Origin: Serpentinicella alkaliphila | GTDB lineage: Bacteria; Bacillota; Clostridia; Peptostreptococcales; Natronincolaceae | Assembly: GCF_018141405.1 (NCBI RefSeq) | Contig: NZ_CP058648.1 | Coordinates: 77,001 to 141,000, forward strand | DNA length: 64,000 nucleotides | Direction: 5' to 3' | Shown: positions 2,974 through 61,530 of the stretch, piece by piece | How positions within the stretch are numbered: the first letter of the stretch is position 1 | Layout of the letters: every line of letters begins with the position of its first letter | The notes under the pieces: generated by a model | What the model was told of the DNA's origin: nothing | The model's database searches: none | What the model saw: only the letters and a program-made list of their open reading frames with translations | Translations under genes and position numbers: made by a program

Positions 2974-2988
2974 AGACTTCTCCTTTAG

Positions 2989-3936
2989 TTAGTATATAAA
3001 CCAATGAATAAAAGTAAATAATAACAGGGCTAGCATTGAAGTTACATACATTAGTTTAATTGTATCTATAATATTTTCTATTTCCACTTCTCTACTCGCA
3101 TCTCCTATTGTTGGCTTATGAACAAGCTTGCCAAAATAGTAGTGACTTCCACCTAACTGTACACCTAGCGCCCCAGCTACTGCAGCCTCTGGATAAGCAC
3201 AATTAGGACTTGAATGATTTTTTCTATCCCTTATTAGTATTTTCAAGCTTTGATCCATATTTAATCTTAGTATTACTGCTGCGATAACTAACATTATTCC
3301 TGTGATTCTGGCAGGAATAAAATTAGCTATATCATCTAGCTTTGCAGAAGCATAGCCTAAATATAAATACTTTTCATTTTTATACCCCACCATAGAATCT
3401 AAAGTATTAATTGCTTTATATGCTAAGGCTAAGGGTGCCCCGCCTATAAACATATAGAAGATTGGTGCCACTACCCCATCTGATGTGTTTTCTGCAATAG
3501 TTTCAATTACAGCCTTTGTAATTTGACTGCTATTCAAATGTGTTGTGTCCCTACCAACGATATAAGATAATAGCTTTCTCCCTAATAAAATATCTTTGTT
3601 TTTAAGGGCATTATATACTTTACTACTTTCTTCTTTTAAACATTTAGTAGCAATCGTAGTCCAAAGAAGTACTATATTTATGAGGTAAAACAGGTTAATA
3701 TGAATATCCTTTACGAAAGCTAGTATAAAGTACGTAGTGAAATACGTGATTAAAACTGTTGTAAATGTAAGTATAACCCCCCCAGTCTTTAGCCCCAGAG
3801 GTGAAGAGGTTATCTTTCTAATAATATTTTCCATAAAACTTATAAGCTTACCAATTGCCCTAATTGGGTGAGGAAACCAATAGGGGTCACCAATAATTAG
3901 GTCGATGCCATAGGCAATCCAGTAAAAGGAAATCAT
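2989..3936 (-). CDS. cbiB: Adenosylcobinamide-phosphate synthase
   Basis: This 315-residue integral membrane protein attaches aminopropanol (phosphate) to adenosylcobyric acid. It carries family hallmarks: DLIIGDPYWFPHPIRAIG at the N-terminus, NTSDGVVAPIFY in the middle, NTLDSMVGYKN after it, and SPNCAYPEAAVAGALGVQLGG toward the C-terminus. Several hydrophobic helices are visible. Its ATG overlaps the last base of the cbiP stop codon and is preceded by GGAGGAAG, which suggests translational coupling within the operon. Confidence 0.95.
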   Translation of the reverse strand: MISFYWIAYGIDLIIGDPYWFPHPIRAIGKLISFMENIIRKITSSPLGLKTGGVILTFTTVLITYFTTYFILAFVKDIHINLFYLINIVLLWTTIATKCLKEESSKVYNALKNKDILLGRKLLSYIVGRDTTHLNSSQITKAVIETIAENTSDGVVAPIFYMFIGGAPLALAYKAINTLDSMVGYKNEKYLYLGYASAKLDDIANFIPARITGIMLVIAAVILRLNMDQSLKILIRDRKNHSSPNCAYPEAAVAGALGVQLGGSHYYFGKLVHKPTIGDASREVEIENIIDTIKLMYVTSMLALLLFTFIHWFIY

Positions 3937-9455: not shown

Positions 9456-10349
9456 TTAGTCTTTTTTAACATTTGATTTAATTATACACCAATCACAGTT
9501 ATTACACAATTCTACCTTTTGATTAAAAATACGCTTAATCGTATTGATAATATACTTGAAATTATTATTACCAGTTTTGTGAATTATAATATTATTTGGT
9601 GCAATTGTTATTAGGGAACTTATTAATAAATCATCATAGCTTATATCATTTTCCTTCATTTCAGCTGCAATTAGTCTTAAATATTCATCATTTATCTCTT
9701 TTCCGTAATTATCAAACAAGCTGTAATTATTTTCTTCTTTCATATATATGTGTACAATGTCTACCTTTGGTTCCTGTATATCTACAAAGTACCTTAAAAG
9801 TTTAATAAATTCATTGTACTCTTTATCCATCAAAAAATCTTCGACTGCCTCATCAATAACAATCTTTAATTCCTCAACATAGTCCTTTAATCTAAAGGTA
9901 ATAAACCCCTTTATATTTATTTTACTATTTGACTCGAAATAATTTACTAGTTCTTCTACGATTATAGATTTTTGTCCTAAAGCATCATTTTTGTCAATTT
10001 TTAATTTATTTACAGAATCTAATGCCCGTTGCAGTATTTCTTTTCTCTCATCTATGTTAAAATAATTGTATTCTTGATTAATAAGCTCTTTAATAATGTT
10101 TGGTTGTTCAATTGTTTTTATATATTCATAAATTCCTTCACTAGCAGTACGTTTAAAAAGACTAATAAAATCATTTATTGTATAATTGTTTATTGTTTTT
10201 CCATCCATTATATATATAATTGTGTTAGTGCTTGGTTCAAATTGATTCTCTATTAAAATGCCTTCATCGCTAAAGGTCTTAATATGTCTATTTATAGCTA
10301 ATGTTAAGTCATTTGCATGTTTATCAGCAACAATAGTTACAATTTGCAA
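9456..10349 (-). CDS. ytxC: Sporulation protein YtxC-like
   Basis: About 297 residues resembling the YtxC sporulation-associated family, a soluble protein of unknown biochemical role found in spore-forming Firmicutes. Recognisable features are the N-terminal QIVTIVADKHANDLT, a central FRLKDYVEELKIVIDEAVED segment, and the C-terminal cysteine group CNNCDWC that ends many clostridial members. The frame extends to an ATG at 10367, but GGGAGTG is spaced 6 bases before the TTG at 10349, which is the preferred start. It is monocistronic with its own terminator. Confidence 0.75.
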   Translation of the reverse strand: MQIVTIVADKHANDLTLAINRHIKTFSDEGILIENQFEPSTNTIIYIMDGKTINNYTINDFISLFKRTASEGIYEYIKTIEQPNIIKELINQEYNYFNIDERKEILQRALDSVNKLKIDKNDALGQKSIIVEELVNYFESNSKINIKGFITFRLKDYVEELKIVIDEAVEDFLMDKEYNEFIKLLRYFVDIQEPKVDIVHIYMKEENNYSLFDNYGKEINDEYLRLIAAEMKENDISYDDLLISSLITIAPNNIIIHKTGNNNFKYIINTIKRIFNQKVELCNNCDWCIIKSNVKKD

Positions 10350-10502
10350 CTTTTTCACTCCCTTCATTGTATTAGTAGTATATGTTTAATTATTAATCAT
10401 ATTCTAAATATAGCTATATTAAAAACTATTAAATTTTATAGATTGTACCGTCTTTTACCATAATATAAATATATTTTTAATTTTAAAAATCGAGGTGAAA
10501 TT

Positions 10503-10907
10503 ATGTCCGGAATTATCAATTTGTCGGAAATGGTAACATTAGGTCTTCATAGTATGGTATTAATTGCAAATAAAGAAAAACCACTGCTAAGCGTTAAAGA
10601 AATTGCATTTAGTACAAACTCATCTGAGTTTCATCTATCTAAGGTATTACAAATATTAGTGAAAAAAGGCTTTATAAAGTCAGTTAGAGGTCCAAAAGGT
10701 GGTTTTACATTAGCAATGGAACCTGAAAACATTTCCTTCTATGATATATATACTGCCCTAGAAGGACCTGTTAATATAAAAAAGTGCCCTATAAGTTGTA
10801 ATAACTGTGCCTTTCAATCCTGTATTTTCGCAAATGTTTTAGAAAAATTAAATGATGAGCTTATACAGTTTTTACAAACACAAAAATTAAACGAATTTCT
10901 TCGTTAA
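10503..10907 (+). CDS. Rrf2 family transcriptional regulator
   Basis: A 134-residue winged-helix regulator. The N-terminal half has the Rrf2 recognition pattern KEIAFSTNSSEFHLSKVLQ and then VRGPKGGFTLA near residues 60-72. The C-terminal part carries CPISCNNCAFQSC, a cysteine cluster suited to binding an Fe-S centre as in IscR or NsrR, although its spacing (four Cys within 13 residues) differs from the usual three-Cys pattern. Its stop codon overlaps the frame of the next gene, an Fe-S DNA glycosylase, so the two are probably co-transcribed. The signal sensed is unknown; redox or Fe-S status is an inference. Confidence 0.85.
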   Translation: MSGIINLSEMVTLGLHSMVLIANKEKPLLSVKEIAFSTNSSEFHLSKVLQILVKKGFIKSVRGPKGGFTLAMEPENISFYDIYTALEGPVNIKKCPISCNNCAFQSCIFANVLEKLNDELIQFLQTQKLNEFLR

Positions 10908-10924
10908 TGAATGCGAGGATCTAT

Positions 10925-11578
10925 ATGAACAATACAGAATTAACTTTAATGGAAATATACGATAAACTATTTAATTATTATGGGCCTCAAAACTGGTGGC
11001 CAGGAGATACTGACTTTGAAATTATGCTTGGGGCGATCCTAACTCAAAACACATCATGGGAAAACGTTGAGAAAGCTATACTAAATTTAAAGCCTTACTT
11101 AGACCCCTATAGCATTAGCAAAATGGATGAAAATATTCTAAGTGTGCTTATAAAACCAAGTGGCTTTTTTAACGTAAAAACGAAGAGAATAAAGAATTTC
11201 CTAGGATGGTATGAACAGAAAGGTTTTTCAGTAAATGTTTTAAGAGAAATGAAAACTCAAGATTTAAGAGATGAATTACTTAGTGTTAATGGAATAGGTA
11301 GGGAGACTGCTGACTCTATTATTTTATATGCCGTAGATAAGCCTATTTTCGTAGTTGATGCCTATACCAAAAGACTATTTGAACGTATAGGCTTTGAGAT
11401 TCCTAAGGACTATGATTCAATTCAAGAACTATTTCATAGCTCCCTAGAGACTAATACGTACCTTTTTAATGAATACCATGCCCTTATTGTAATTCACTGT
11501 AAAACCTTTTGTAAGAGTATAGGAAGATGTGAAAATTGCTTTTTAAATAACTGTTGTAATTTCTACAAAAATAAATAA
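10925..11578 (+). CDS. Endonuclease III-related DNA glycosylase (HhH-GPD, Fe-S)
   Basis: About 217 residues of the HhH-GPD superfamily, closest in pattern to the COG2231 EndoIII-like/3-methyladenine glycosylases. GAILTQNTSWENVEKAI is followed by the helix-hairpin-helix LLSVNGIGRETADSIILYA and the catalytic Asp in VVDAYTKR. The C-terminal Cys-x5-Cys-x2-Cys-x5-Cys loop should hold a 4Fe-4S cluster. The lysine used by bifunctional Nth is replaced (GRETAD), suggesting a glycosylase without strong lyase activity. The frame reaches 10907, but GAGG precedes the ATG at 10925. It removes damaged bases; the exact lesion is unknown. Confidence 0.85.
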   Translation: MNNTELTLMEIYDKLFNYYGPQNWWPGDTDFEIMLGAILTQNTSWENVEKAILNLKPYLDPYSISKMDENILSVLIKPSGFFNVKTKRIKNFLGWYEQKGFSVNVLREMKTQDLRDELLSVNGIGRETADSIILYAVDKPIFVVDAYTKRLFERIGFEIPKDYDSIQELFHSSLETNTYLFNEYHALIVIHCKTFCKSIGRCENCFLNNCCNFYKNK

Positions 11579-47737: not shown

Positions 47738-48058
47738 TCATTTAACAAGTTTAATTGAATATCTTCTGTCAAGATAGCTTACTAAATCCTTTACCATTTT
47801 TTCATAGCTACAATTAAATACATCCCATTGTCTTTTATAGTTAGCGTAAATCAGTCGTTTTGTATAATTTGTCATAGGTATATCTCTATATATGCAAAGA
47901 CGTGATACTTTCCCAGTACCAGCATTTAAGCTATATGGATTTAGTCCGTGCTCGACCTCAGTTTTGTGTACTAAAGCAAACCAACTCAGTTCGTCAATTT
48001 GACCTTTAATATATCCATATCTATTTTTACTGCTACTAATTTTAATATCACATAACAT
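47738..48058 (-). CDS. Hypothetical protein
   Basis: A 106-residue soluble protein starting at an ATG with GGAGGGG. It has GYIKGQIDELSWFALVHKTE near residue 14 and GKVSRLCIYRD near residue 48, which suggests a small beta-rich domain, then a basic helical tail. I do not recognise a named family with confidence. It stands alone between pgsA and the substrate-binding protein gene. Confidence 0.6.
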   Translation of the reverse strand: MLCDIKISSSKNRYGYIKGQIDELSWFALVHKTEVEHGLNPYSLNAGTGKVSRLCIYRDIPMTNYTKRLIYANYKRQWDVFNCSYEKMVKDLVSYLDRRYSIKLVK

Positions 48059-48193: not shown

Positions 48194-49204
48194 ATGAAAA
48201 GATTTAAGGTGTTATCTATTTTACTTACTTTACTTTTAATTACTACAATAACCTTAAGTGCATGTACTACTAAACCTGCAAAGCCTGCTGAATTAACTAA
48301 GATTAAAGTTATGGAAGTTACACATTCAGTATTTTACGCACCACAATACATTGCAATTACAGAAGGCTTTTTTGAGGAAGAAGGTCTAGAAATAGAGCTT
48401 ACAGACGGGGGCGGAGCTGATAAAACTATGGCTGCTCTACTTAGTAATCAAGTTGATATCGGTTTTATGGGTCCTGAAGCTTCAATTTATGTCTATAACC
48501 AAGGAGCTGCTGACTATGCAATTAACTTTGCACAGTTAACTCAAAGGGATGGTTCTTTCATCGTTGCTAGAGAACCTAATTCTGATTTCACTTTTGAAGA
48601 CCTAAGAGGAACTTCTATTCTAGGTGGAAGAAAAGGTGGAATGCCTAATATGACACTAGAATACGTACTTAAAAACAAAGGCTTAGTACCTGGGACAGAT
48701 ATTGATGTTCGTACAGATATTCAATTTGCAGTAATGGCTGGGGCATTTGTTGGTGGAGAAGGTGACTACACGACATTATTTGAGCCTACAGCATCAGTTC
48801 TTGAAAAAGAAGGTAAGGGCTTCGTAGTAGCTTCTGTTGGAGCAGAAGGTGGATATATTCCTTATACAGTTTACTCAGCTAGAAAAAGTTATATAGAACA
48901 AAATCCTGAAATTATTCAAAGCTTTACTAATGCAATCTATAAAGCTATGCTTTGGGTAGAAGAGCATAGTGCAGAAGAAGTTGCTAAGTCCTTAGCTCCA
49001 CACTTCCCAGATGCAGACTTAGGAATTTTAACTAACGTAGTAGAAAGATATAGATCCATTGGAGCATGGGCACCAAACCCAGTTTTAACAGAGGAAGGAT
49101 TAACTAGACTTCAAGATATCATGACAGAAGCTGGTGTATTAGAAAAAAGAGTGCCTCATGAAGCTATTGTAAACACTGAGTTTGCTAAGAGAGCTATGGA
49201 ATAA
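48194..49204 (+). CDS. NMT1/THI5-like ABC substrate-binding lipoprotein (parent copy)
   Basis: A 336-residue secreted binding protein of the NMT1/THI5 (SsuA/TauA/ThiY-like) superfamily. The lipobox is LSAC with Cys near residue 24. SVFYAPQYIAITEGFFEEEGLEI-type opening (split here as FYAPQYIAITEGFF), then GADKTMAALLSNQVDIGFMG and PDADLGILTNVVERY, fit the fold. The ligand may be a thiamine pyrimidine precursor, a sulfonate or another small molecule. No permease or ATPase gene is next to it, so it is an orphan here. The 3' half is copied three times downstream. The ATG follows TGGAGGGG. Confidence 0.9.
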   Translation: MKRFKVLSILLTLLLITTITLSACTTKPAKPAELTKIKVMEVTHSVFYAPQYIAITEGFFEEEGLEIELTDGGGADKTMAALLSNQVDIGFMGPEASIYVYNQGAADYAINFAQLTQRDGSFIVAREPNSDFTFEDLRGTSILGGRKGGMPNMTLEYVLKNKGLVPGTDIDVRTDIQFAVMAGAFVGGEGDYTTLFEPTASVLEKEGKGFVVASVGAEGGYIPYTVYSARKSYIEQNPEIIQSFTNAIYKAMLWVEEHSAEEVAKSLAPHFPDADLGILTNVVERYRSIGAWAPNPVLTEEGLTRLQDIMTEAGVLEKRVPHEAIVNTEFAKRAME

Positions 49205-49213
49205 TGTTAATCA

Positions 49214-49262
49214 AAAACAGCAATAGGGATATGTTTAGCCATACTTCTATTGCTGTTTATTT
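49214..49262 (+). terminator. Terminator of the substrate-binding protein gene
   Basis: An AACAGCAATAGGGATATG / CATACTTCTATTGCTGTT inverted repeat followed by TATTTT. Similar hairpins follow the copies at 53 and 61.5 kb, and a truncated one follows the copy at 57.9 kb. The rest of the gap to 49437 shows nothing recognisable. Confidence 0.85.
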
Positions 49263-49437
49263 TGGTTTTATAATAAATGTTTACTAATGGCACAATGAAG
49301 GGTTTAATAATATGTATCTGTAAATACTTACATCTCAATTTTAACACGAATTTACATACACTCTCATTAATTTCTCCTTAAAACGGGCTTATCCTAAATA
49401 TATTTGGTTATGTCACAACAGACGGATGAAAAGCTTT

Positions 49438-49632
49438 TTATAGCGGCAAATATCCTAATTTTATTGCAGTTTGAATTAAAAATAAAATCACAACTCCTGC
49501 CTGAATAACTATCCCTGCAGTTTGAACATTTTTCTGTTCTTTTTCCTGAAGCTTAAGTCCTACCAAAAACAAAATAAGCAATGCACTAGCACCTAACACG
49601 AAAATCATCCTTTTTTTTAATTTGTAGTGCAA
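49438..49632 (-). CDS. Small two-helix membrane protein
   Basis: About 64 residues with two hydrophobic helices (MIFVLGASALLILFLVGL and IVIQAGVVILFLIQTAI). The start is uncertain: the longest frame begins at a TTG without a good ribosome site, whereas AAGGATG is spaced for an internal GTG near residue 12. No family is recognised. It follows the XRE regulator/membrane protein pair on the same strand, so it might belong to that unit. Confidence 0.4.
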   Translation of the reverse strand: MHYKLKKRMIFVLGASALLILFLVGLKLQEKEQKNVQTAGIVIQAGVVILFLIQTAIKLGYLPL

Positions 49633-49728
49633 AAATATCCAAACACATGTATTTGAAATGGTTATAATATGTTAAAGAATCAACCCTTAATGGAAAAATC
49701 CATATATTTATTTCTTATTCATGGTGTT

Positions 49729-50151
49729 CTACGTATTTCTTTTTTCCCACATATGAAGAATAATCCTATATAGAAAAAATAGAAAAAGAGTACCGAAAAA
49801 ACTCACTGTAAAACCGCATAATAAACGTCTAATATCCGAACCTATCTTAAAAAAAACAATAAGAGCTGATAGTATTCCTGTAGATAATGGAACTAAAAAC
49901 ACAAAGTACAACTGCTCTTTTTTATTCATTGTAACAGGATAGGTGATGGGGATACCTTTAATAGCTAAAGCAAAAAATTGTGCTAATGACGCAATAAACC
50001 AGACCAAGAAAAAATCTAAGGTATCCATAAGAGTTTGATTCAAAATAAACCACCTATACAGTATTACTGCAAATATACCAAACCAAAAAATCGTATAGCC
50101 AATACTTTTTGCTATTTTAACATCTGCGTTTACTCTTTCATCATTTTTCAT
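49729..50151 (-). CDS. Four-helix membrane protein paired with XRE regulator
   Basis: A 140-residue integral membrane protein with about four hydrophobic segments (for example TIFWFGIFAVILYRWFIL and LLCGFTVSFFGTLFLFFLY). The family is unknown to me by name. Its ATG follows AGGAGG and overlaps the end of the XRE regulator gene by 11 bases, so the two are translationally coupled. Such regulator/membrane protein pairs occur widely in Firmicutes; the function is not established. Confidence 0.65.
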   Translation of the reverse strand: MKNDERVNADVKIAKSIGYTIFWFGIFAVILYRWFILNQTLMDTLDFFLVWFIASLAQFFALAIKGIPITYPVTMNKKEQLYFVFLVPLSTGILSALIVFFKIGSDIRRLLCGFTVSFFGTLFLFFLYRIILHMWEKRNT

Positions 50152-50371
50152 CTACATCCTCCTCTAACCAAAATAGTTGATCCAGAGACTTATTTAGAAC
50201 TTGGCATAACTTAAGTCCTAAGGCTATGGTGGGATTATATTTCTCTTTCTCTATAAGCCCTATTGTTTGCCTTGTTACCCCTACTTTCTCAGCAAGTTCT
50301 TCTTGAGTTAGTTGATTCTCATTACGGCTTTGCTTAACACTGTTCTTAATTATAAATATCACCTCAATCAA
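50141..50371 (-). CDS. XRE family helix-turn-helix regulator
   Basis: A DNA-binding protein of about 70-76 residues with the Cro/C1-type helix-turn-helix LTQEELAEKVGVTRQTIGLIE, followed by KYNPTIALGLKLCQVLNKSL and an acidic tail. The start is unclear: the frame opens at a TTG (50371), a GTG lies three codons in, and the GAGGTGAT stretch is best spaced for a non-standard codon. An AT-rich inverted repeat at 50377-50421, just upstream, may be its own operator. It is followed by the membrane protein gene. Confidence 0.85.
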   Translation of the reverse strand: MIEVIFIIKNSVKQSRNENQLTQEELAEKVGVTRQTIGLIEKEKYNPTIALGLKLCQVLNKSLDQLFWLEEDVDEK

Positions 50372-50376
50372 TAAAA

Positions 50377-50421
50377 ATGCAATATATATATTCCTTTTTT
50401 ATCGTAATATATATATTGCAT
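50377..50421. promoter_or_regulatory. 16-bp inverted repeat upstream of the XRE operon
   Basis: ATGCAATATATATATT (50377-50392) and its exact reverse complement (50406-50421) are separated by 13 bases, directly before the regulator gene. The position fits an autoregulatory operator or a promoter-overlapping hairpin. The A+T richness lowers the weight of the arms, but GCA at both outer ends supports a designed repeat. Confidence 0.55.
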
Positions 50422-50648
50422 TCAGTCAAGAAAAAGAACATAAATAAATGTAATTTTTACTTTCTTCTATGAAATTATAAATAGCTTAATACCTTTAGTA
50501 TGGTCATATTTCCAATCTATTTAAGCATCTGAACACATTTGCAATTTATCAAATCATACATTCCGCTTAATTTCCTCACCCCTATAAAAACAAATCCCCC
50601 AAACTCTTATTCTGAGGGAACATATGTACATTGTTAATTTTACAAATC

Positions 50649-51132
50649 TCACATTGGTATTTCTATAATTAATATTCTGAACAAACTTTTCAAACCTATA
50701 ATATTTTCATGCAACATTTTAATTAATTCCCCTAGTGGGGTAGTTTTTTTCCTAATCAATAACAGCCCCTTAATCTTGTATATTGCATCCAATTCTTCTT
50801 TACTATCAGTTCTGATATATGTCTCATTTTCATGAGTTATATTCACCAACCAATCAGTTCCATTTTTTATGAAACTTAAATCCTCTGTCAATTCGGGTTG
50901 CACCCATAATAATATAATTTAGCAGGCTCACTACCTCCAAAAATTATACCTGCCCATTCATATTGCTCTTTAACATTTTTTAGAGAAAGCGTTAATCTTT
51001 CAATGACAGTATTAACTGTGTTATCTAGTATCCAACTACTTCTTACTACTAAAATAACTCATCACCGATTTCAAAGGCTAAATCTATAAGTTTTTTATAT
51101 GCATCATAATATAAATCACCCTTTATAAACAT
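50649..51132 (-). pseudogene. Decayed gene of unknown family
   Basis: Three consecutive reading segments on the minus strand can be joined into one protein-like sequence: from an ATG at 51132 (FIKGDLYYDAYKKLIDLAFE), a shift near the TAG at about 51058, then SWILDNTVNTVIERLTLSLK and IIFGGSEPAKLYYYGCNP, a shift near the TGA at about 50905, then ELTEDLSFIKNGTDWLVNI to the end. Two lesions make it a pseudogene. No function is recognised. A short segment of a related sequence lies at 51385-51475. Confidence 0.6.
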
Positions 51133-51384
51133 AATTTACCATGTTTTAATTTTAATACTATCATAATCGCACTCATTTTTGTAGGTTATCTTTGTTTTCT
51201 TTCTTTTTTAAATGAAATTCACTCCCTTTGGTTGTATTATTACCCCTCCTTCATTTCCGTCACATTTCATCTGTGACCACTTATAAAGAAAATGTGATGC
51301 AAAACAAATACCAAGATATTACTTTTAATCTTTTTCTCCCATTATCATACTAACTTTCATATTCATACAAAGCATTAACTAACT

Positions 51385-51475
51385 AAGGCTGTTTGTTTTT
51401 TATAAATGATAAGTCTTCGGTCAATTGAGTTTGAATACAATCATGTAATAAGTTTAATTCATGTTTTAATATTTC
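51385..51475 (-). pseudogene. Fragment related to the 50.6-51.1 kb pseudogene
   Basis: On the minus strand, a short open segment ending at a TAG encodes QLTEDLSFIKN, nearly the same as ELTEDLSFIKN in the pseudogene 700 bases away, with similar codons. It overlaps the end of the membrane protein gene at 51477 in another frame. The rest of the gap 51133-51384 shows no recognisable gene. Confidence 0.4.
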
Positions 51476-51476
51476 T

Positions 51477-52037
51477 TTAGCATAATTTATAAACTCTATT
51501 CCTTTTTTGAAAAAATAATAAATTAACTCCAAATAAAATCTTAACAATCCCATCGGCTACACCAAAGTAAATAAAGGGAACTTCTTTATTAAACATACCA
51601 ATGATCGCTAAGACTGAACAGATTGTGGCAAGATAAATCATTGATTTTCCATGTGAAAAATAAAAAGGCAAGAAATGAATACCTGTTGCAAGTAATGCCC
51701 CAAGCCACATCATTCTCCAATCGCTTCTTGGGATAAAAGAACCTCCTAAAACAAAAATTAGTGGAAATAAAGATAGCACCCCAATATTAGCCATTTTCTC
51801 TTGAAACTTTGAAAGCTCGCCATCCATAAATTTGGAAACTATCGCTTTATTGAAATTTGTTAGATAAAAGCCAACTCCAAAGCCAGTCATAAAAATAATT
51901 GGATTTAAAACAAATTTTCCACCTACTATTGTAGCTATTATAATCACTGAGCCAATAATGAGCAGCCAAAGTCCGCTCAAGCGATTCGCATTAAATTCTA
52001 GCTTTACATTTTTATCATACCCTAATCTCTCTAGCAT
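51477..52037 (-). CDS. Six-helix hypothetical membrane protein
   Basis: A 186-residue integral membrane protein with about six hydrophobic helices, beginning after a soluble N-terminus (LERLGYDKNVKLEFNANRL). Conserved-looking motifs are FIPRSDWRMMWLGALLATG and HFLPFYFSHGKS, which together resemble the DUF6609-type family, though this is a weak call. The ATG follows GGAGAGATG. Its start abuts the stop of a decayed DUF4177 gene, so they once formed an operon. Confidence 0.6.
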   Translation of the reverse strand: MLERLGYDKNVKLEFNANRLSGLWLLIIGSVIIIATIVGGKFVLNPIIFMTGFGVGFYLTNFNKAIVSKFMDGELSKFQEKMANIGVLSLFPLIFVLGGSFIPRSDWRMMWLGALLATGIHFLPFYFSHGKSMIYLATICSVLAIIGMFNKEVPFIYFGVADGIVKILFGVNLLFFQKRNRVYKLC

Positions 52038-52193
52038 CTAATCATCTCTCCTTCTTTTTTCTCTTTTTAAATAATGACATGCCCAACATACACTTACTAA
52101 TTCCCAACCCTCTTTGCCCTAGGTGTTTAATACCCTGGTCGTTTTCTCTCCAAGTCGTAAAATCAAAACACACTTATACTCGTATTTATTCAT
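52038..52193 (-). pseudogene. DUF4177-like small gene with an internal stop
   Basis: A 52-codon frame from an ATG with AAGAGGG upstream reads MNKYEYKCVLI and then GKEGWELVSVCWACHYLKRE, the pattern of DUF4177 proteins, but codon 25 is TAG (52119-52121). The frame is otherwise intact and ends exactly before the membrane protein gene. A point mutation to a stop is the simplest reading. Confidence 0.6.
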
Positions 52194-52197
52194 TTTG

Positions 52198-52320
52198 CTA
52201 CCCTCTTAAGTTATTCTTACTTAACTCGTTACTAGTTAAAAAATTCATCTTAACAACTTCATATACCTTAGTATCATTTATTACCCTAGCTTGAATGCTC
52301 AGATAATAGTTGTACTCCCC
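52198..52320 (-). pseudogene. C-terminal gene remnant
   Basis: An open 40-codon segment without a start codon ends at a TAG five bases before the DUF4177-like start. It encodes YNYYLSIQARVINDTKVYEV and more, and no family is recognised. The rest of the gap up to 52570 is AT-rich and shows nothing else I can support. Confidence 0.3.
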
Positions 52321-52570
52321 TCATTGAATGTAGATTTTAATACTTATAACACTACATAACGTCCCTAGATTGAGTCTAGAACAAAAAATAAGTAACTATT
52401 GTTAAAGCATCATTAGTTTTCAACTTTAACTATATTATACTATATATTGTAATTTGACTTTTACAGAACTTGGTGCATAATAACTAAATATATATCGTGA
52501 TTTTGATTATACACATAACTACATCTTCTTCAATATATGTATTTTTAAAAGATTATCATTTGTATTTTTA

Positions 52571-52587
52571 GGTGGTATAAAGAGGAT
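52571..52587 (+). repeat. Shared 5' junction of substrate-binding protein fragment (copy 2)
   Basis: GGTGGTATAAAGAGGAT directly precedes the homology to the parent gene. Related sequences (GTTGTACAAAGTGGAT, GTGGTACAAAGTGGAT) precede the other two fragments at 57606 and 61074, while the parent gene has a different sequence at this point. Confidence 0.65.
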
Positions 52588-53034
52588 GACTATACGACAT
52601 TATTTGAGCCTACAGCATCAGTTCTTGAAAAAGAAGGTAAGGGCTTCGTAGTAGCTTCTGTTGGAGCAGAAGGTGGATATATTCCTTATACAGTTTACTC
52701 TACAAGAAAGAGCTATTTAGAACAAAATCCTGAAATTATTCAAAGCTTTACAAATGCTATCTACAAAGCAATGCTTTGGGTAGAAGATCATAGTGCAGAG
52801 GAAGTTGCTAAATCCTTAGCTCCACACTTCCCAGATGCAGACCTAGGAATTTTAACTAACGTAGTAGAAAGATATAGATCAATTGGAACATGGGCACCAA
52901 ACCCAGTTCTGACCGAAGAAGGGTTAACTAGACTTCAAGATATCATGACAGAAGCTGGGGTATTAGAGAAAAGAGTACCTCATAGTGTTATAGTAAATAC
53001 TGAGTTTGCTAAAAAAGCTATGAAATATAAATAA
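52588..53034 (+). pseudogene. Substrate-binding protein 3' fragment, copy 2
   Basis: This segment matches the last 147 codons of the parent gene at 48194-49204 from DYTTLFEPTASVLEKE to the end. The frame is intact (for example STRKSYLEQNPEIIQSF and VPHSVIVNTEFAKK), but it lacks the lipoprotein signal and the first lobe and has no visible promoter or ribosome site. It ends with a terminator like the parent's. Most differences from the parent are single substitutions. Confidence 0.85.
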
Positions 53035-53082
53035 AAACAACAATAGGGGTATGTAGAACCATACTCCTATTGTTGTTTTTTT
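53034..53082 (+). terminator. Terminator following fragment copy 2
   Basis: An ACAACAATAGGGGTATG / CATACTCCTATTGTTGT stem and a seven-T run, homologous to the parent's terminator with compensating changes (GC to AC on one arm and GC to GT on the other). Confidence 0.85.
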
Positions 53083-53257
53083 ACTCAAGAACAAATTGTA
53101 TAAAAATAGAATCTAGATAGATTTCGAATTTCTTTATCATTTGGTCTAAGACTTCCATAAAGATCTCATCCTTACTTTTAAAATGAGAAAATATAGACCG
53201 TTTTTTGATTTCAACTTGTTTAGCAATTTGTGATAAACTTGCTTCTGAATATCCTTG
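53081..53257 (-). pseudogene. TetR family regulator, N-terminal DNA-binding segment (inverted)
   Basis: On the minus strand the frame reads QGYSEASLSQIAKQVEIKK, then SIFSHFKSKDEIFMEVL and DQMIKKFEIYLDSIF, the helix-turn-helix of TetR/AcrR regulators. It lacks the first helix and a start codon and runs into the terminator of copy 2. The matching C-terminal domain lies on the opposite strand immediately to the right (53260-53617). Confidence 0.75.
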
Positions 53258-53259
53258 TT

Positions 53260-53617
53260 AAGTATAAAGATGAGAATGTAGAGCTCCTTTATGAAGAATA
53301 TAATTATATACTTTGAAGAAAACAATTATACAACAAACTTTTGGCTTCACACAAGTCTATTTCCAAACTTGGTAATTAAAGATCTAGTTAAAATAAAGAT
53401 GATGACAATACGTAACCTATCTACAGAGCACTTTATGTATATATTGAAAAAAAGAATTTAGTGCCAGGTAATTAAAGAAAAAAATTCTGATAAGTTACTA
53501 AAATACTTTTTTCACCTACTTTATGGGAACTTAGCTTTATGTCTATATGATAACTCTATAACACACTCCGAATTAAGTTATATATTCAACATGTTTTGGA
53601 AAAATATTACCAAATAA
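53260..53617 (+). pseudogene. TetR family regulator, ligand-binding segment
   Basis: The plus strand encodes YKDENVELLYEEYNYIL, a frameshift, then YFEENNYTTNFWLHTSLFP, an in-frame TAG, and LLKYFFHLLYGNLALCLYD to SYIFNMFWKNITK, which looks like an AcrR/TetR C-terminal domain. A terminator follows at 53682. The gene would have been read rightward; its HTH part is now on the other strand. Confidence 0.65.
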
Positions 53618-53681
53618 GTATAGGAATATTAACCATATTTAACAAAATAAACTTTACATAAAAGTAATTTTACGCTAGAAT

Positions 53682-53725
53682 AAACCTACTATCATTAGCT
53701 ACCGATAGTAGGTTTGTTCTTTTTC
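53682..53725 (+). terminator. Terminator of the disrupted tetR gene
   Basis: An AAACCTACTATC / GATAGTAGGTTT 12-bp stem with a ten-base loop, followed by GTTCTTTTT. Confidence 0.8.
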
Positions 53726-53831
53726 ATTTTTGTATCACTAAGACACTGCTGTATTCTATTTGTTAACTATTATTCAAATTATGGAGTAAGTATTTAGACT
53801 TTTTTGATTGTATAAATTAGTAAAGTTATAA

Positions 53832-53838
53832 AATAATA
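53832..53838. repeat. Left flanking direct repeat of the IS4-family element
   Basis: AATAATA lies directly outside the left terminal inverted repeat and is repeated directly outside the right one (55523-55529), as expected for a target-site duplication. The A+T content means it could also be chance. Confidence 0.5.
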
Positions 53839-53854
53839 CATGAGTTATGCAGTT
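53839..53854 (+). repeat. Left terminal inverted repeat
   Basis: CATGAGTTATGCAGTT, an exact reverse complement of the right end at 55507-55522. Confidence 0.9.
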
Positions 53855-55377
53855 GACTCCATATACTGGGAATTTTGCACAGTAAACCAACCTAACAATA
53901 AATTCTTCGGCCAAAATTTATCAATAAGTCTTGCAAATTGCCTAACTTCTGTGTCAAAATGTACTTGTATAGTTTGAAAGCATTGCTGTGCTTTTATAAC
54001 GATACGGTATGTGGCGTTGAAAAAGTTTCGGACCATTTCGCCGTGGGTGAAGCCTTCTTCAGCGCCTTTATTATTGAGTTCCCATCTTGCATAGACAAGT
54101 AAAGTTTCTCTTTGTAAAAATGAGCTCAATATGGGCGTAATGATGACTTTCCGACGTTGAGTGGCAAGAATTCAACCCCAGTTCTTGTTTTGCAGTTCTA
54201 AAAAAAAAAACCTCAATGCTCCAACGCTTAATATATGCATCTAAAGCTTCTTCAGGATTATCGACCCTATTACTAATCAAAAGGTAAGCCCCACGATATG
54301 TAGCCGCAACCTCTTTGTTTTTCTCAAATTCATCCTTCATCATTTCAGTATCTTCTTTGAGTCTTGTAGCTACAACTCGCAATAGGCGTATAACGATACT
54401 TAGTTACTACTTTACCCTGCTTTCCAACTAAACGGTAGGGTAACTTGATATAAATATTAGGTATGGATATAGCACTTACTTTATCTTTAGACCACTAATA
54501 AGAAGTTTGAAAAAAACTTCTTTAATAAGCATTGAAGGCTTTACAGGGATAAAGCGTTCTCGGCCTGTAATATTCTCAATTTCTTTTCGATAAAGTGTCA
54601 GATTACGTTTTGCCTTAGTAACCCAATCATATTGATGATCTGTGAGCCAATTAAAAAAGTCTTTGCATAAAAACCACGGTCCATGGCAACCCATAGTACC
54701 CCTGTGTAAATCCGGCGAATATCCATTAGCATTTCTTTTGAAAGATCTATTTTTGTCTGTTTTTCATCGCTATTTTCTACCTTACGCCAAATACGCCAAA
54801 ACAATGGATATTTAAGTCCGTTCTTTAATACAACAGTTGTAGCAACTATATTCATACACCAGATATTTATTTTAATGGAGCTATCATATAACCAACAAAG
54901 GAAAGGGATTTTCTTTCCATGGGCATGAGCCACCTTTGTATCATCAAGTACAATAACATCTCCTTCAGTAAATGCAGTTTCTTCTTCTTGTTGTAGTCTT
55001 TGTACTCTTTTAAAACTAAATAAACCCCAATTATAATCAGTTGTAAAAAAGCGGCTAAAGGTATATTGAGCCATTTTAAGATTCCGAAACATCTGTTGTA
55101 ATAAGCTATCCTTAGTAGCATAATCAGAAATACGTGAGACAGAATTTTTATTAGCAATAAGTCCTACCACATAAGCAAAAGCAATAAGCCAAGTGGGTAC
55201 ACCATTACGTTTTACAATACCCGATTGCGTAAGCAGAAGTGAAAAATCAAATTTATCCCAAATTGCTTTTAAAACTGGCGTTCCGCCCCCATTTCCTTGT
55301 TGTAAATTTCTATATTTCGGTTTCCCAAGAGTCATATTTATCACCCATTCATCAAGAGTAATGGCTATTAATACCAT
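53845..55377 (-). pseudogene. IS4-family transposase, multiply frameshifted
   Basis: The DDE transposase can be followed across at least four reading-frame segments: an N-terminal part ending near 54690 with VIVLDDTKVAHAHGKKIPF (first catalytic Asp) and VLWVAMDRGFY (second Asp), a part with NWLTDHQYDWVTKAKRN, a part with AYIKRWSIEVF and RTAKQELGLNS, and a C-terminal part. The Y-(2)-R-(3)-E-(6)-K signature of IS4 is visible once an extra base in an A-run is allowed for. The shifts fall near 54690, 54400, 54200 and 54120, so no active transposase can be made. Confidence 0.88.
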
Positions 55378-55506
55378 TCACTTTGATTATTGGGGCGGGT
55401 TTAAAAAGTCAAGTCTTTTTTGCTATTTCAAGACATATAAAACAAAAATATTTTTTAGTATATTATAATATACGATACATCAGTCTTATTTACATTTATT
55501 TACACG

Positions 55507-55522
55507 AACTGCATAACTCATG
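55507..55522 (-). repeat. Right terminal inverted repeat
   Basis: AACTGCATAACTCATG, an exact reverse complement of the left end at 53839-53854. The bases to the right (55523-55529) repeat the left flank. Confidence 0.9.
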
Positions 55523-55639
55523 AATAATACTATAAATATTTTGTAAAATTTCCTTAATTTACAGAAGATAACTCTTCATACATCGAAAGCGTCCCAGCTA
55601 AATTTTAAAAAACTACTACTAAAAAATGGAGGGGATTTT

Positions 55640-57562
55640 ATGTCAAGTGTAAATCTTATAAACACACAAGAAGAAAACTGTGTTGGATGCAATAAATGTA
55701 TCAATGGTTGTCCAATAAAAGGCGCAAATATCGCTGAGTTTAAGGACGGTGTAAACATAGTAAAAATAGATACAAATAAGTGCATTCAATGTGGTCATTG
55801 TATAAATGCTTGTGATCATGACGCTAGAGAATATATTGATGATACTAAACAGTTTTTTGAAGACTTAAAGAATGGTAAAAAAATATCTATGTTAGTCGCT
55901 CCTGCCGTGAGAGTTAACTTCAAGTATTACAATAAATTATTTGGGTACTTAAAAAGTATAGGTGTTAGGTTAGTTTACGATGTGTCACTGGGTGCTGACA
56001 TTACCACCTGGGCATACCTGAAGAAAATAAAAGAAGATAAACTGACATCTGTAATAGCCCAGCCCTGTCCGTCAATAGTTAGCTACATAGAAAAATATAG
56101 ACCCGAACTTATAAGCAAATTATCCCCAATACATTCTCCAATGATTAATACTGCAATCTATCTAAAAAAATATGTTGGCACTGATGATGAACTAGCTTTT
56201 TTATCTCCATGTATCGCTAAAGGCAATGAGATTAAAGATATTAATACTAGTTCAATGATTAAATACAATGTTACATTTAAAAAAATCCAAGAACATTTGA
56301 GAAATAATAATATACAACTTCATAGCTTTCCTTCAATAGATTTTGACCATATGCAGTCTTCAATTGGTAGCTTATACAGTAGACCCGGTGGCTTAAGAGA
56401 GAATGTTGAAGCTAGGATTAAAGGAGCTTGGATTAGACAAATTGAAGGACAAAACCATGTATATCACTATCTAGAAGAATATAAAAATCGAATTGATAAT
56501 AATAAATCGTTACCCCTTCTTGTAGATATTCTAAACTGTCCTTTTGGGTGTAACATTGGTACTGGAACTTCTAAGAACTTGCAATTAGACGATATTGACG
56601 AAGTGTTTAATGACATGAAAAAAAATAGACTTAATAAAAAAGGAAAACTCCCTTTAAGTAAAAATATAGATGATATGTACAAGTTATTTGATTCTAAGCT
56701 AAATATTAATCATTTTATAAGAAGTTACAGTGATAAATCTCAAGAAATAGGTAAGTGGTTAGATCCAACAGTTGCTGAGTATAAGCAAATACTAGAAAAA
56801 TTACACAAAGATAATGAAAAGGACGAAAACATAAATTGTTTTGCTTGTGGTTATGGTGATTGTGCTACTATGATTAAAGCGATACATAATGGTGCAAATC
56901 ACTTAGAAAATTGTATGCACTATAATAGAAGAGAACTTGAAATAGAACATAATATAATTACCGAGAAACATAAGGAACTAGAAGAAGTGTTAGATCAGGT
57001 TAGTTATATGAATGAAGAAAGAATGTCGGAAATAAAGCATTTAAATATTGTTGTTAATACTATACTAAATTCTATAAATGAAGTTAATTCAGGTAGTGAG
57101 GAAGTAATAGCAAGTGTTGAAAATATCACTACTGAGGTATATAGTACTTTAAGTACATCAAAAGATCTAAATATTAAAATAGGATCCATTAGAGAAAAGA
57201 TTGATAAGTTTTCGAAGGCTACAGAGGAAATAGTAAGCATCTCAGAACAAACTAATTTATTGGCGCTAAATGCTGCCATTGAATCTGCAAGAGCAGGAGA
57301 ATCAGGTAGGGGATTTGCAGTAGTGGCCGAAGAAGTTAAGAAGTTAGCTGAGAATTCAAAAGCTGTAGCAGAATCCACTAAAACAGATGAGCGAGATGTA
57401 ATTAATTCCATTTTAAACATCATTACACAATCAGAAACTGTTGGTGCTAGAATGGATATTATTAGTGATGCAATTAACAATATATCTGCTAGTTTACAAG
57501 AAATCACTGCTACAAGTCAGTCAATTGCTGAAAATGCTAATACTTTAATAAAAGAGAAATAA
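55640..57562 (+). CDS. [FeFe]-hydrogenase-like domain fused to a chemoreceptor signalling domain
   Basis: A 640-residue soluble protein. Two 4Fe-4S ferredoxin motifs occupy residues 14-25 ([12 protein letters not shown]) and 48-59. An [FeFe]-hydrogenase large-subunit region follows with cluster cysteines in degenerate L1 ([10 protein letters not shown], Cys near 143), L2 ([11 protein letters not shown], near 191) and L3 ([12 protein letters not shown], near 299-303). Another Fe-S site, CFACGYGDC, lies near residue 401, and a methyl-accepting signalling hairpin spans about 455-640 with [20 protein letters not shown]. There is no membrane segment. It probably senses redox state or H2 and talks to chemotaxis kinases; H2-turnover activity is doubtful given the altered motifs. 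The ATG follows GGAGGGG. Confidence 0.88.
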
Positions 57563-57605
57563 AAAGATAGTAATATAAATTGCGTAATACTATTTGTTTA
57601 TTTTA

Positions 57606-57952
57606 GTTGTACAAAGTGGATGACTCCCTACAAGAAAAAGCTATTTAGAAAAAATTCTGAAATTATTCAAAGCTTTACAAATGCTATTTATAAAGCAATG
57701 CTTTTGGTAGAAGAGCTTAGTGCAGAAGAGATTGCTAAATCCTTAGCTACCACACTTCCCAGATGCATACCTAGGAATTTTGACTAACGTAGTAGAAAGA
57801 TATAGACCAATTAGAGCATGGGCACCAAAACCAGTTCTTACTGAAGAAGAATTAACTAGACTTCAAGATATTATGACAGTGGTGTATTAGAGAAAAGAGT
57901 AACCCATAGTGCTATTGTAAATACTGAGTTTGCTAAAAAAGCTATGAAATAA
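57606..57952 (+). pseudogene. Substrate-binding protein 3' fragment, copy 3 (degraded)
   Basis: The junction GTTGTACAAAGTGGAT is followed by GACT and then jumps to CTACAAGAAAAAGC, so about 110 bases of the homology are deleted. It shares the CTACAAGAAA variant with copy 2 rather than with the parent or copy 4. An extra base (GCTACCACAC for GCTCCACAC) and a five-base loss before GGTGTATTAG break the frame. The end matches ATGAAATAA. Its terminator is cut off by the IS1634-family element. Confidence 0.85.
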
Positions 57953-57984
57953 TAAAAATTAAAACAGCAATAGGGATATGAGAG

Positions 57985-59843
57985 ACCACTGAAAAACTAA
58001 AAAGGGGCTATCGCAAAATTAAAAATTTCAATCGAAATCCTCAAAAAATAATAGAACCTTTCGTATTAAGAGTTTTTAATAACTCTAGAATTCGGTAGGT
58101 TTTTTTCTTCTTATTTATTTCTCTGTTTTTTTGCATCTCAGATTCCGCTTAAATCATAATAAAAATTAAATATTTTTTTCAGTCAAAATGAGTTTCCAAT
58201 TTAATGTCGAATACTAGTAGTATAAACGTATTAGAGGTCCTTAAATGTCTATTAATCTTAAAAATATAAAAACTTATACTGATGATAAAGCCACTTTTTT
58301 AGTCGGTTTATTGGAATAAATGGGCTTGCCACAAATTATCGATAATCATATGGCTAGTGACTTTGGGCGTCCTCTTGAGATTCCTTACAGTGTACTGGCC
58401 AGATGATACTTGTTAACCTATGTGATGATCATCACCCTCTTTCAAGACTTAATGAATATTATGAGTACAAAGACTTAGAATCTATTTTCAACTATCCAGT
58501 AACACTTTCTCAAATTAATGATGACCGATTGGTGGTTTTCTTGATCTTTTACATGATGCTGGACCCAGAGTGGGGCACCTATGAGGTAGATGGCGAAGAT
58601 GCTGGTGTCATTCAGATTAGATTGACTATGGGTATAGTAAACAAAAACGTCAAGATAAGAAACAATTAAAGGTTTCATTAGGAGCTGCTAATGGAGTTTT
58701 AGTTTATGCTAAAGTCTTATCAGAAAACATGGACGATAAAACTTACAATAAAGAACAGTTAGATGATGTAGAAGACCTTCTAAAACTACCTAAAAATAAA
58801 CCCTGATACCTTCTATTACATTGCCGATAGCGCATTGTTTTCCCTAGAAAATATACTTAAAGCTAATAAAAGAAACATTAATCTCATTACCAGGATATCC
58901 GATAATACCAAAGCTACTAAAGCTCTGATTGAAAGAGCTGTTTTAGACTTTAGAAATATGTGATTCCTGTAGAGTCAACAGATAAAAAATCCGAAAAATA
59001 TCGTCTAACGGAAGCTACAGGAGACTATACGGATGTACCCTTTAAAGTATTGTACTTGCTATTCAGAAGAACTTCGTAAAAAGAAGGAAAAAAGTATTTC
59101 AAAGCAAGTATTCTCAGAAAGCGAAGAGCTTGATAAATTGACGAAACAGTATTCAAAACGCACGTTCGCATGCTATGAAAACGCTGAACTTGAGATTGTA
59201 AAGACTTCGTCAATAGCACTAAAGAAAATTAAGTATCATATAGTAACTGTTAATATTAATGAAAGTACAAATCGAAAACCCGGAAGACCTTCTAATAAAG
59301 CTAGTGCAGAAGTATTTGAGCTTTGCTATTCTGAGCAAATCAACAGTCAAATGGATAACGAAGCCTTAGAAAAAAATCTTTTAAGTCAATCAATGTTTGT
59401 GCTTTGTAGCAATGATCTGGAAATCGAGGCTGAAATAATTCTCAAAGAGTATAAAACACAAGGACAAATAGAGAAAAAGTTCCAACTGTTGAAATCACCC
59501 CCACTGGTTAACTCTTTTGTATTTAAATTCTCCAAAGAGAATTGAAGCATTGATGTACTACTTTTAATTTGCTGTTATGTCATTGTCAGTTGCAGAATAT
59601 GTGGTTCGGCGTGAGATGGCTAAAAATGAAGAAGTAATCATTGGTCCAGGGAAAGTTAAAATGACACGTCCTACATTAGTAGCTATTTATCAAATCTTTT
59701 ATAGTGTCCAAACCATTGTTTATCACGCTGGAGCCCAAACTCAGCGGGATTTTACACGCCCAATAAATAATAGTATTAAGACAGTACTTCGATGTTTAGG
59801 AATATCTGAAAATATCTTTATACGGAGTAGAACCTACTTTTAA
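57985..59843 (+). mobile_element. IS1634-family insertion sequence, decayed; right end not identified
   Basis: The left end lies at about 57985, where ACCACTGAAAAACTAAAAAG and GGGGCTATCGCAAAATT replace the second arm of the copy 3 terminator. A transposase-like coding region runs from 58245 to 59843. No complementary right terminal repeat was found up to 60050, so the right end is missing or too degraded. Everything between 57985 and 58244 is the left non-coding end of this element. Confidence 0.7.
58245..59843 (+). pseudogene. IS1634-family transposase, multiply disrupted
   Basis: The transposase can be followed through several frames: MSINLKNIKTYTDDKATFLV, stop, MGLPQIIDNHMASDFGRPLE, then DDHHPLSRLNEYYEYKDLES and INDDRLVVFL (catalytic Asp region), ANGVLVYAKVLSENMDD, TFYYIADSALFSLENIL (second Asp), EKYRLTEATGDYTDVPFKVL, TQGQIEKKFQLLKSPP (with the catalytic Glu), and SVAEYVVRREMAKNEEV at the C-terminus. 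At least five stops or shifts exclude activity. The longest surviving frame is 59033-59545. Confidence 0.85.
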
Positions 59844-60059
59844 TAAACTAATTAAAATCTTTCAAAATTTATATCTGCTTCAGCGTAATGTGAGATATTT
59901 AGATAGTTTATATAATAGCTGTATTACCTATTAATTTGTCATATGATTTTGGAGAAGAAATTTTTTGACAATAAGTTTGTGTTACACTGTTTTAGATTAT
60001 ATGGTATTATATACTCATGTATTTAATTTTTGTATTTTACGATAGGGGTATGCACTCAT

Positions 60060-60461
60060 ATGACTTATTTATTTCATAAAAGACAGACGAGTATATTTAT
60101 TTATATTGTTCTTGTTATACTCTTATTAAACTATTTCACAATAGATAACTTGTATACAACTAACAATAATATAGACGATACAACATTACCTTACTTTTTT
60201 GCTATGCAGTACCAATTAGAAATTCTAAATTTACAAGAGCTACATCGAAATAAAATTAGCCTAAATATGCTATATGGAATTGTGAACTTATTTGTTCTAA
60301 TATTAGCTTGTATCTATAATTTGATTCTAGATTATAGATATGGAACATATTTATGTTTGCACATTTCAAGATTGTTTATCATATTGCAAAGGTTACTTTT
60401 GCCAAGACAAAATTCGAGTAGGTATAAAGCTCCTTTATTATTAAGTATACAGTTTAACTAA
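60060..60461 (+). CDS. Hypothetical two-helix membrane protein
   Basis: About 133 residues from the ATG at 60060, which has AGGGG about 9 bases upstream; a longer frame from a TTG at 60030 includes that ribosome site and is less likely. Two hydrophobic segments are visible: IFIYIVLVILLLNYFTI near residue 10 and YGIVNLFVLILACIYNLIL near residue 78. Between them is a soluble loop rich in Asn and Leu. No family is recognised. A TTGACA at 59965-59970 may be its -35 box. It may be co-transcribed with the short gene at 60493. The stretch 59844-60059 otherwise holds nothing recognisable. Confidence 0.5.
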   Translation: MTYLFHKRQTSIFIYIVLVILLLNYFTIDNLYTTNNNIDDTTLPYFFAMQYQLEILNLQELHRNKISLNMLYGIVNLFVLILACIYNLILDYRYGTYLCLHISRLFIILQRLLLPRQNSSRYKAPLLLSIQFN

Positions 60462-60492
60462 ACTAAAAGCTTAATATAGGGAGGCATTGTCG

Positions 60493-60648
60493 ATGGAACA
60501 ACAATTAGATGTAATTGCGGTTTTACTAGTTTTTATTGGATTTTGTATAGGTAGCGTTTTATTAATAAAAAAATCAAATGAGGAAATGAATAAACAAAAT
60601 ACAGCAAATGATGAACTTGCTCAAACTGATATAAAAAAGTATAAATAA
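60493..60648 (+). CDS. Small single-span membrane protein
   Basis: A 51-residue protein with GGGAGG 8 bases before its ATG and a strong terminator just after its stop. It has one membrane helix (VIAVLLVFIGFCIGSVLLI) and an Asn/Lys-rich soluble tail. No family is recognised. It follows the two-helix membrane protein gene by 31 bases. Confidence 0.6.
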   Translation: MEQQLDVIAVLLVFIGFCIGSVLLIKKSNEEMNKQNTANDELAQTDIKKYK

Positions 60649-60657
60649 CTAATAAAA

Positions 60658-60690
60658 GATATTGGGGTAATTTACCCCAATATTTTTTTT
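60658..60690 (+). terminator. Strong terminator
   Basis: An ATATTGGGGTAA / TTACCCCAATAT stem followed by eight T residues after the small membrane protein gene. Confidence 0.88.
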
Positions 60691-60698
60691 AAAAAGAA

Positions 60699-60935
60699 TT
60701 ATTCATCCTCTAACACTCTATGTATTGATTCAAGCAACATTATTATAGGCAATTCAATTTTAATAGATTCATTTATTATATCATCGTCTATGTTTTGTTT
60801 ATTTGTTTTGATTTAATGGTATCTGGCTAAAACTAAGCTTAATAAATACTGAGTTTCTTCTTTTTTAAAACCTATAGAATTCAATAATTTCACCTAGCAT
60901 CATAATTTCTTTAACAATCACAATTATGTAGTATA
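60699..60935 (-). pseudogene. Decayed gene of unknown family
   Basis: On the minus strand a protein-like sequence can be joined from EIMMLGEIIEFYR through a shift to GFKKEETQYLLSLVLARYH, an in-frame TAA, and DDDIINESIKIELPIIMLLE, SIHRVLEDE and a stop. One frameshift and one stop disrupt it. No family is recognised. The gap between it and 61073 shows nothing else. Confidence 0.4.
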
Positions 60936-61073
60936 TTTATTTCCCGAGATTATATATACTATCTACTTTTCTGTAAACCCATTAATGATATGTCATCTAT
61001 AGACTAATTAATTTAATTTATGTTTATGAGTTATAGATTCAATAGAAATATGAGTTTTATTTTATAAATATGC

Positions 61074-61530
61074 GTGGTACAAAGTGGATAATTATACGAC
61101 ATTATTTGAGCCTACTGCATCAGTTCTTGAAAAAGAAGACAAAGGCTTTGTTGTAGCTTCTGTTGGAGCAGAGGGTGGATATATTCCTTATACAGTTTAC
61201 TCAGATAGAAAAAGCTATATAGAGCAAAATCCAGAAATATTTCAAAGCTTTACAAATACTATTTATAAAGCAATGCTTTGGGTAGAAGATCATAGTGCAG
61301 AGGAAGTTGCTAAATCCTTAGCTCCTCACTTTCCAGATGCTGACCTAGTAATTTTAACTAACGTGGTAGAAAGATATAGATCAATTGAAGCATGGGCACC
61401 TAACCCAGTTCTAACTGTAGCAGGTTTAAATAGACTTCAAGATATTATGACAGAAGCTGATGAATTAGATAAGATAGTACCACATAGTGCTATAGTAAAT
61501 ACAGAGTTTGCTAAAAAAGTTATGGAATAA
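61074..61530 (+). pseudogene. Substrate-binding protein 3' fragment, copy 4
   Basis: After the shared junction GTGGTACAAAGTGGAT, homology to the parent begins at NYTTLFEPTASVLEKE and runs to the stop with the frame open (147 codons). Several non-conservative changes are seen relative to the parent: LVIL for LGIL, SIEAW for SIGAW, LTVAGLNR for LTEEGLTR and ADELDKIVP for AGVLEKRVP. This suggests relaxed selection. No promoter, ribosome site or signal peptide is present. Confidence 0.85.

Follow-up and report, generated by a model that had tools for sequence, protein, structure and literature searches.

An array of 3' gene halves beside a substrate-binding lipoprotein gene of Serpentinicella alkaliphila, very probably left by repeated recombinase insertion and half-gene replacement

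We analysed a 64-kb stretch of the Serpentinicella alkaliphila genome (G000, positions 77001-141000; hereafter the window, whose own numbering is used unless G000 is given), which carries an intact gene for an orphan substrate-binding lipoprotein (Pfam matches NMT1_2 PF13379, E-value 4e-19, and NMT1 PF09084) followed by several promoterless 3' halves of the same gene. The original prediction for this stretch had described the gene at 48194-49204 with three 3'-half copies in the same orientation, and had discussed them as a possible silent-cassette store or, more likely, as the result of plain decay after duplication. The gene and the three copies are all present and are listed here together with the features that border them. 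Non-synonymous (dN) and synonymous (dS) substitutions per site were estimated using the Nei-Gojobori method. The terminator scan overlooked visible hairpins owing to its loop limit, and the gene terminator was read from the sequence; a promoter scan gave matches at chance level.

48194..49204, + strand: intact orphan substrate-binding lipoprotein gene (NMT1-like), the target gene; open reading frame of 336 aa
48740..48795, + strand: predicted attB region in the gene, codons ~183-200, GGTGGAGAAGGTGACTAC/ACGACATTATTTGAG; the same codons are split by large serine recombinase (LSR) elements in G014, G006 and Maledivibacter (G070)
49205..49262, + strand: gene terminator, hairpin plus T run, last position common to the copies; homology to the copies stops there
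52571..52589, + strand: putative attR arm (P arm) fronting copy 2, GGTGGTATAAAGAGGATGA; window search
52588..53034, + strand: 3' half, copy 2, putatively displaced (codons 191-336, open frame); 95% protein identity, dN 0.029 and dS 0.30 vs the gene
57605..57623, + strand: putative attR arm fronting copy 3, AGTTGTACAAAGTGGATGA; window and 71-kb searches
57633..57980, + strand: 3' half, copy 3, putatively displaced (internal deletion, frameshifts); 87% DNA identity
61073..61091, + strand: putative attR arm fronting copy 4, CGTGGTACAAAGTGGATAA; window and 71-kb searches
61090..61530, + strand: 3' half, copy 4, putatively displaced (open frame, relaxed); dN/dS 0.98 vs copy 5 at G000 143271

The three copies are not the full set. 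Searching for the same cassette elsewhere in the genome, as had been proposed, gave three further copies beyond the window end (copies 5, 6 and 7; G000 143254-143766, 144347-144516 and 150388-150775) and no second 5' half, of which there is only one in the entire G000 genome. Taken together, the gene and six 3'-half copies make seven copies in one orientation within 25 kb, with a likeness of 87-91% at the DNA level, far above chance. The common start that had been noted holds for copies 2 and 4, which begin at the codons for DYTTLFEP, while copy 3 retains its border yet lacks ~37 codons and has small indels; its predicted internal deletion and lesions were confirmed. Copy 6 is an internal piece without the 5' border, and copies 3, 5 and 7 contain stops. 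At the other end the homology among the copies stops at the terminator, as predicted. In the phylogenetic tree all copies form one clade separate from other genera (support 1.0), and copies 2 and 3, which have variants in common as was first noticed from the sequence, are sisters (support 0.89).

Directly ahead of copies 2, 3, 4, 5 and 7, i.e. 5/5 bordered copies and 5/6 copies, lies a 19-bp sequence, GGTGGTAYAAAGWGGATRA, with a few changes in the older ones. A search of the window with GGTGGTACAAAGTGGATGA, allowing up to 3 mismatches, gave 3 matches, each exactly at a copy, vs 0.02 expected. In the wider island, a 71-kb stretch covering G000 125-196 kb, five places reached the threshold of ≥15/19 identity to GGTGGTACAAAGTGGATGA, all of them fronting bordered copies and none elsewhere. 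The putative scar junction, where an element P arm meets the B' arm of the target gene, falls at the same codon in 5/5 bordered copies, and no homology was detected upstream of the arms or beyond the terminator, except for ~100 bp common to copies 4 and 5. We also considered the P arm as a decayed bit of the gene's own 5' half, and this origin was ruled out: the arm is common to all bordered copies and matches the attR of LSR elements, inverted at their attL. The original prediction had named a refuting alternative in which every fragment derives from a once full-length paralogue and has upstream sequence of its own. This is not what we find, since what lies upstream appears to be an element end.

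Relatives carry LSR elements in the same gene. In an uncultured Alkaliphilus sp. (G014) a 9.2-kb insert, which starts with an LSR beside attL, interrupts the gene at codon 193; the end of its attL, CATGATACCACC, and the start of its attR, GGTGGTATCATG, are inverted relative to each other, as is typical of attP arms. The copy 2 arm matches the G014 attR at 20/25 positions (counted by eye). G006 and Maledivibacter halophilus (G070, 2.8-kb insert) have related LSRs and the same arm at the same codon; the LSRs of the elements at this codon-193 site (G006, Maledivibacter) are 63-68% identical to each other, and the Pfam domains of the LSRs are Resolvase, Recombinase and Zn_ribbon. Since the arm bordering the copies resembles the attR of LSR elements that cut the same gene at the same codon, the fragments appear to be attR scars, that is, an element arm joined to the 3' half displaced by insertion at an attB within the gene. 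The serial origin of the copies suggested in the original prediction stands, but the mode would be insertion and displacement, not duplication. As a separate observation, the G014 element (L073:12298-19081) encodes two proteins with features judged by eye: helicase-like P-loop motifs in one of 1567 aa, and an HNH-like N-terminus in one of 391 aa that has no NCBIfam match.

The position of nrdG is consistent with displacement. The four relatives L021, L022, L028 and L030, in which the gene is intact, have a convergent nrdG within ~0.4 kb of the 3' end of the gene; in G000, nrdG is found at 191.8 kb, at a distance of 65 kb from the gene. In G009 an old displaced 3' piece adjoins nrdG with the intact gene 25 kb away, and an intact gene plus displaced pieces is present also in G003 and Natronincola (G012).

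The substitution patterns show that the halves diverged before they were exchanged. The gene and copy 2 differ by dN 0.029 and dS 0.301 (dN/dS 0.10), the gene and copy 4 by dN 0.060 and dS 0.545 (dN/dS 0.11), and copies 4 and 5 by dN 0.065 and dS 0.066 (dN/dS 0.98). If copy 2 had been silent since the split its dN would be several-fold larger, and the incoming 3' half was therefore already diverged; with a dS of 0.30 but a dN of 0.03 the 3' halves diverged while working and were swapped afterwards. Copies 4 and 5 have gone through a short neutral drift after silencing, whereas the gene, copy 2 and the copy 4/5 ancestor diverged far earlier, as working sequence. Decay after duplication, which the original prediction had considered the more likely, is therefore not the main process: copies 4 and 5 drifted neutrally once silent, but the gene and copy 2 diverged under purifying selection. 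Given the single clade of all copies, separate from other genera, the donors of the diverged 3' halves were probably congeners.

We consider it very probable that the array is a series of LSR insertion scars combined with replaced 3' halves. Codons 191-193 of the gene would constitute an attB of large serine recombinases, at which mobile elements have inserted repeatedly. Each insertion would split the gene and move its 3' half downstream behind the attR of the element, and each time the gene would have become whole again through the 3' half of a related, already diverged version. What stayed behind would be the element without its left end and its recombinase, the attR and the displaced half, and the array would represent at least five such scars in a row. 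The displacement by LSR insertion is what the anatomy of the array and the relatives point to, and the import of diverged halves is given by the dN/dS values.

Several results weigh against this scheme. The restoring step itself was not caught in any genome examined. Just past the junction, the gene and copy 2 are identical over 107 bp (p 0.0014 by permutation, assuming an even spread of differences), which requires conversion or crossover there, and the order of damage along the array is not strictly monotonic, copy 3 being worse than copy 4. Using tblastn, no LSR or remnants thereof were found in the island except for a weak match at 195 kb, and neither an attL nor a reverse arm was found in its 71 kb. 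A search of 297 genomes for the attR-class DNA pattern gave G000 and G014 only and hence no matching integrase; nor was an LSR that has precisely this arm detected anywhere else in them. Moreover, the displaced pieces of G003, G009 and G012 have no recognisable arm.

Nested excision by the LSR is the candidate that we favour for the restoring step, and we would give it a little less than an even chance. By ordinary LSR chemistry, a composite consisting of LSR element, attR, 3' half and cargo would leave a donor by excision between attL and the distal attR and enter a recipient through attP x attB; the LSR element alone would then be lost via attL and the nearest attR, which would give an intact hybrid gene followed by cargo, attR and the old 3' half. 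This scheme gives no origin for the first module of 3' half and cargo.

A close rival, with a somewhat lower probability, is homologous recombination, in which the incoming DNA, circular or a fragment, has an att junction and half of the gene and recombines within that half with an intact allele in a Campbell-like manner. The products would be a hybrid, intact gene and an att arm followed by a displaced half; an LSR would have made the original junction and not the array. The 107-bp identical tract of the gene and copy 2 at the junction agrees well with this rival, and so does L055, which has what looks like the mirror image: a 5' half (2665-3177) with an attL arm at its end, 7 kb of LSR-free sequence and an intact gene (9992-10993), with the half and the gene 94% identical, a difference as large as between two species. 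By symmetry, L055 is equally explicable site-specifically, and homologous recombination would need to have occurred at least five times. Furthermore, the P arms in G000 all belong to a single type, which is what movement of the modules by one integrase specificity would produce.

The silent-cassette store, in which the partial copies would be maintained as a means of diversifying the expressed gene by conversion, we regard as very improbable, even though one complete gene with several promoterless 3' halves has the right layout and the 107-bp tract (p 0.0014) stays as one hint of conversion. A similar tract is found in Natronincola (L080, L081 and L082), where the gene and the displaced 3' ends have ~105 identical bp with differences on both sides, possibly through gene conversion. 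What speaks against a store is that the copies are bordered by what appear to be integrase attachment arms and that in relatives integrase-bearing elements interrupt the gene at the same codon, that other genomes show splits only and no store, and that the donor reservoir is not conserved (copies 4 and 5 neutral, dN/dS 0.98; others with stops and deletions). A simple segmental duplication of the 3' half with subsequent decay is just as improbable, since it might account for copies 4 and 5 as one duplicated silent copy (dN/dS 0.98, a common arm variant, GGATAATTATAC, and ~100 bp of extra common flank) but not for the five arms fronting the copies, the unrelated flanks upstream of the arms or the dN/dS of 0.10 between the gene and copy 2, which is unexpected if copy 2 has been silent since the split. 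Overall, what the original prediction had observed is confirmed, and its interpretation is partly supported.

The orthologous gene was also surveyed at the level of the order (394 genomes, with the split and unbroken genes counted by hand), and it is unbroken in ~81 genomes and split in 18-19. The splits fall at codons ~85, ~175-186, ~193 and ~250, with an LSR adjoining the split at all four, and the gene is thus a general LSR hotspot with at least four sites. LSR elements are also found nested in one gene (L159, L074 and L156), with splits at codons ~85 and ~250 in G107 and ~193 and ~250 in G070, and with two LSRs in G210.

G173 represents an independent repeat of the pattern in a second lineage. 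Here a ~35-kb prophage with an LSR splits the gene at codon ~175; behind its attR lies an intact 3' half (A) and, 2.2 kb further, a decayed 3' half (B), which differs from A by dN 0.031 and dS 0.081. The arms of the two are different: that of A corresponds to the prophage's own attL arm in inverted form, and that of B matches LSR elements in G117, G146, G158 and G210.

In the genus g47, six species (L152, L158 and L168-L171) have a ~9-kb LSR element at the same site of the gene. The elements of two species align with 82-83% identity over most of their length and, since the element genes have diverged about like the host gene (dS), the insertion is old. The split halves have no stops and are under purifying selection (dN/dS 0.015-0.09 between split species), and two g47 species have an intact gene. 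This suggests an element that is vertically inherited and regularly excised, i.e. a candidate programmed-excision element; with one genome per species, turnover of the element within species would give the same picture.

It is conceivable, although as a whole less likely than not, that LSR elements are vehicles that swap the C-terminal half of this host transporter gene between related species by way of site-specific modules (3' half, terminator, cargo and P arm), such that repeated insertion and nested excision would evolve the gene by half-gene exchange, and that a related genus at the same time has a resident, routinely excised element in the same gene. A scan of IMG/VR revealed no phage or viral contigs with the 3' half alone. 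Five human-faecal "phage" scaffolds were considered as half-gene carriers and rejected, as they contain near-complete versions of the gene (≥300 aligned residues).

Composite tandems of cis-mobilizable elements (CIMEs) and integrative and conjugative elements (ICEs), which can move together, are known from the site-specific accretion of ICEs, integrative and mobilizable elements and CIMEs in Streptococcus (PMC5704250), and the nested excision considered here would follow the same logic of accretion and cis-mobilisation. The known ICE/CIME cases mostly involve tyrosine integrases at the 3' ends of genes or tRNA genes, whereas here a serine-integrase site would lie in the middle of a gene. CIMEs also keep both attL and attR, while in the 71-kb island we find putative attR sites and no attL, and each scar keeps ~440 bp of a diverged coding half, unlike CIMEs. 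LSR hotspots in host genes are likewise known: the main text of Durrant et al. (PMC10083194) describes diverse LSRs that share a single conserved target site in a host coding gene, that of a prolyl isomerase in their example, and the gene studied here was not found in that main text. In comparison with the cases given there, the present gene has at least four separate LSR sites and in addition arrays of displaced halves after restoration, and the scar array with half-gene replacement is what is new here. Our literature searches gave no report of the gene as an LSR target.

Intervening elements that are excised during sporulation have been described in sigK (skin), spsM (SPbeta), gerE (gin), kamA and yabG (yin) (PMC4191935, PMC5595907, PMC6957869, PMC10747680, PMC5025042). 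The g47 elements resemble these in that an LSR element splits a conserved gene whose halves are under selection. The target differs in being a transporter-type lipoprotein gene and not a known sporulation gene, and in G000 the gene is already intact. The pilin and vlsE silent cassettes also have one complete gene and several promoterless partial copies, but here the borders appear to be integrase arms, the copies decay and maintained variability was not seen.

An apparent silent-cassette store may thereby be read as a fossil record of integrase insertions that is datable by silent substitutions, where a diverged version can come to replace half of a coding gene after an insertion into it. As an LSR target that is hit recurrently and at several sites, the orphan substrate-binding protein gene should be useful for mining integrase/att pairs, and the split gene in g47 is a new, directly testable candidate for programmed excision.

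The sequences between the copies, for which no strand is assigned, are as follows.

49263..52570: spacer 1, putative stranded insert without recombinase (HTH_3, DUF6609 and unknown genes; Pfam, no LSR by tblastn)
53090..57604: spacer 2, transposase-like remnants and an [FeFe]-hydrogenase-like/methyl-accepting chemotaxis protein (MCP) gene (open reading frames, Pfam)
57981..61072: spacer 3, decayed insert (short open reading frames only; two were scanned, neither with a Pfam match)

In spacer 2, the product of the gene at 55640-57562 combines an [FeFe]-hydrogenase-like and an MCP signalling domain in one fusion; the MCP domain appears shortened, and the gene ends 42 bp ahead of the copy 3 attR arm. 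Immediately upstream of the target gene, 47741-48058 encodes a conserved 106-aa protein of unknown family, without NCBIfam match, which has the same position in nearly all relatives. Finally, L019:12229-19028 has near-identical transposase copies in tandem with another transposase, beside a pyruvate:ferredoxin oxidoreductase-like gene.

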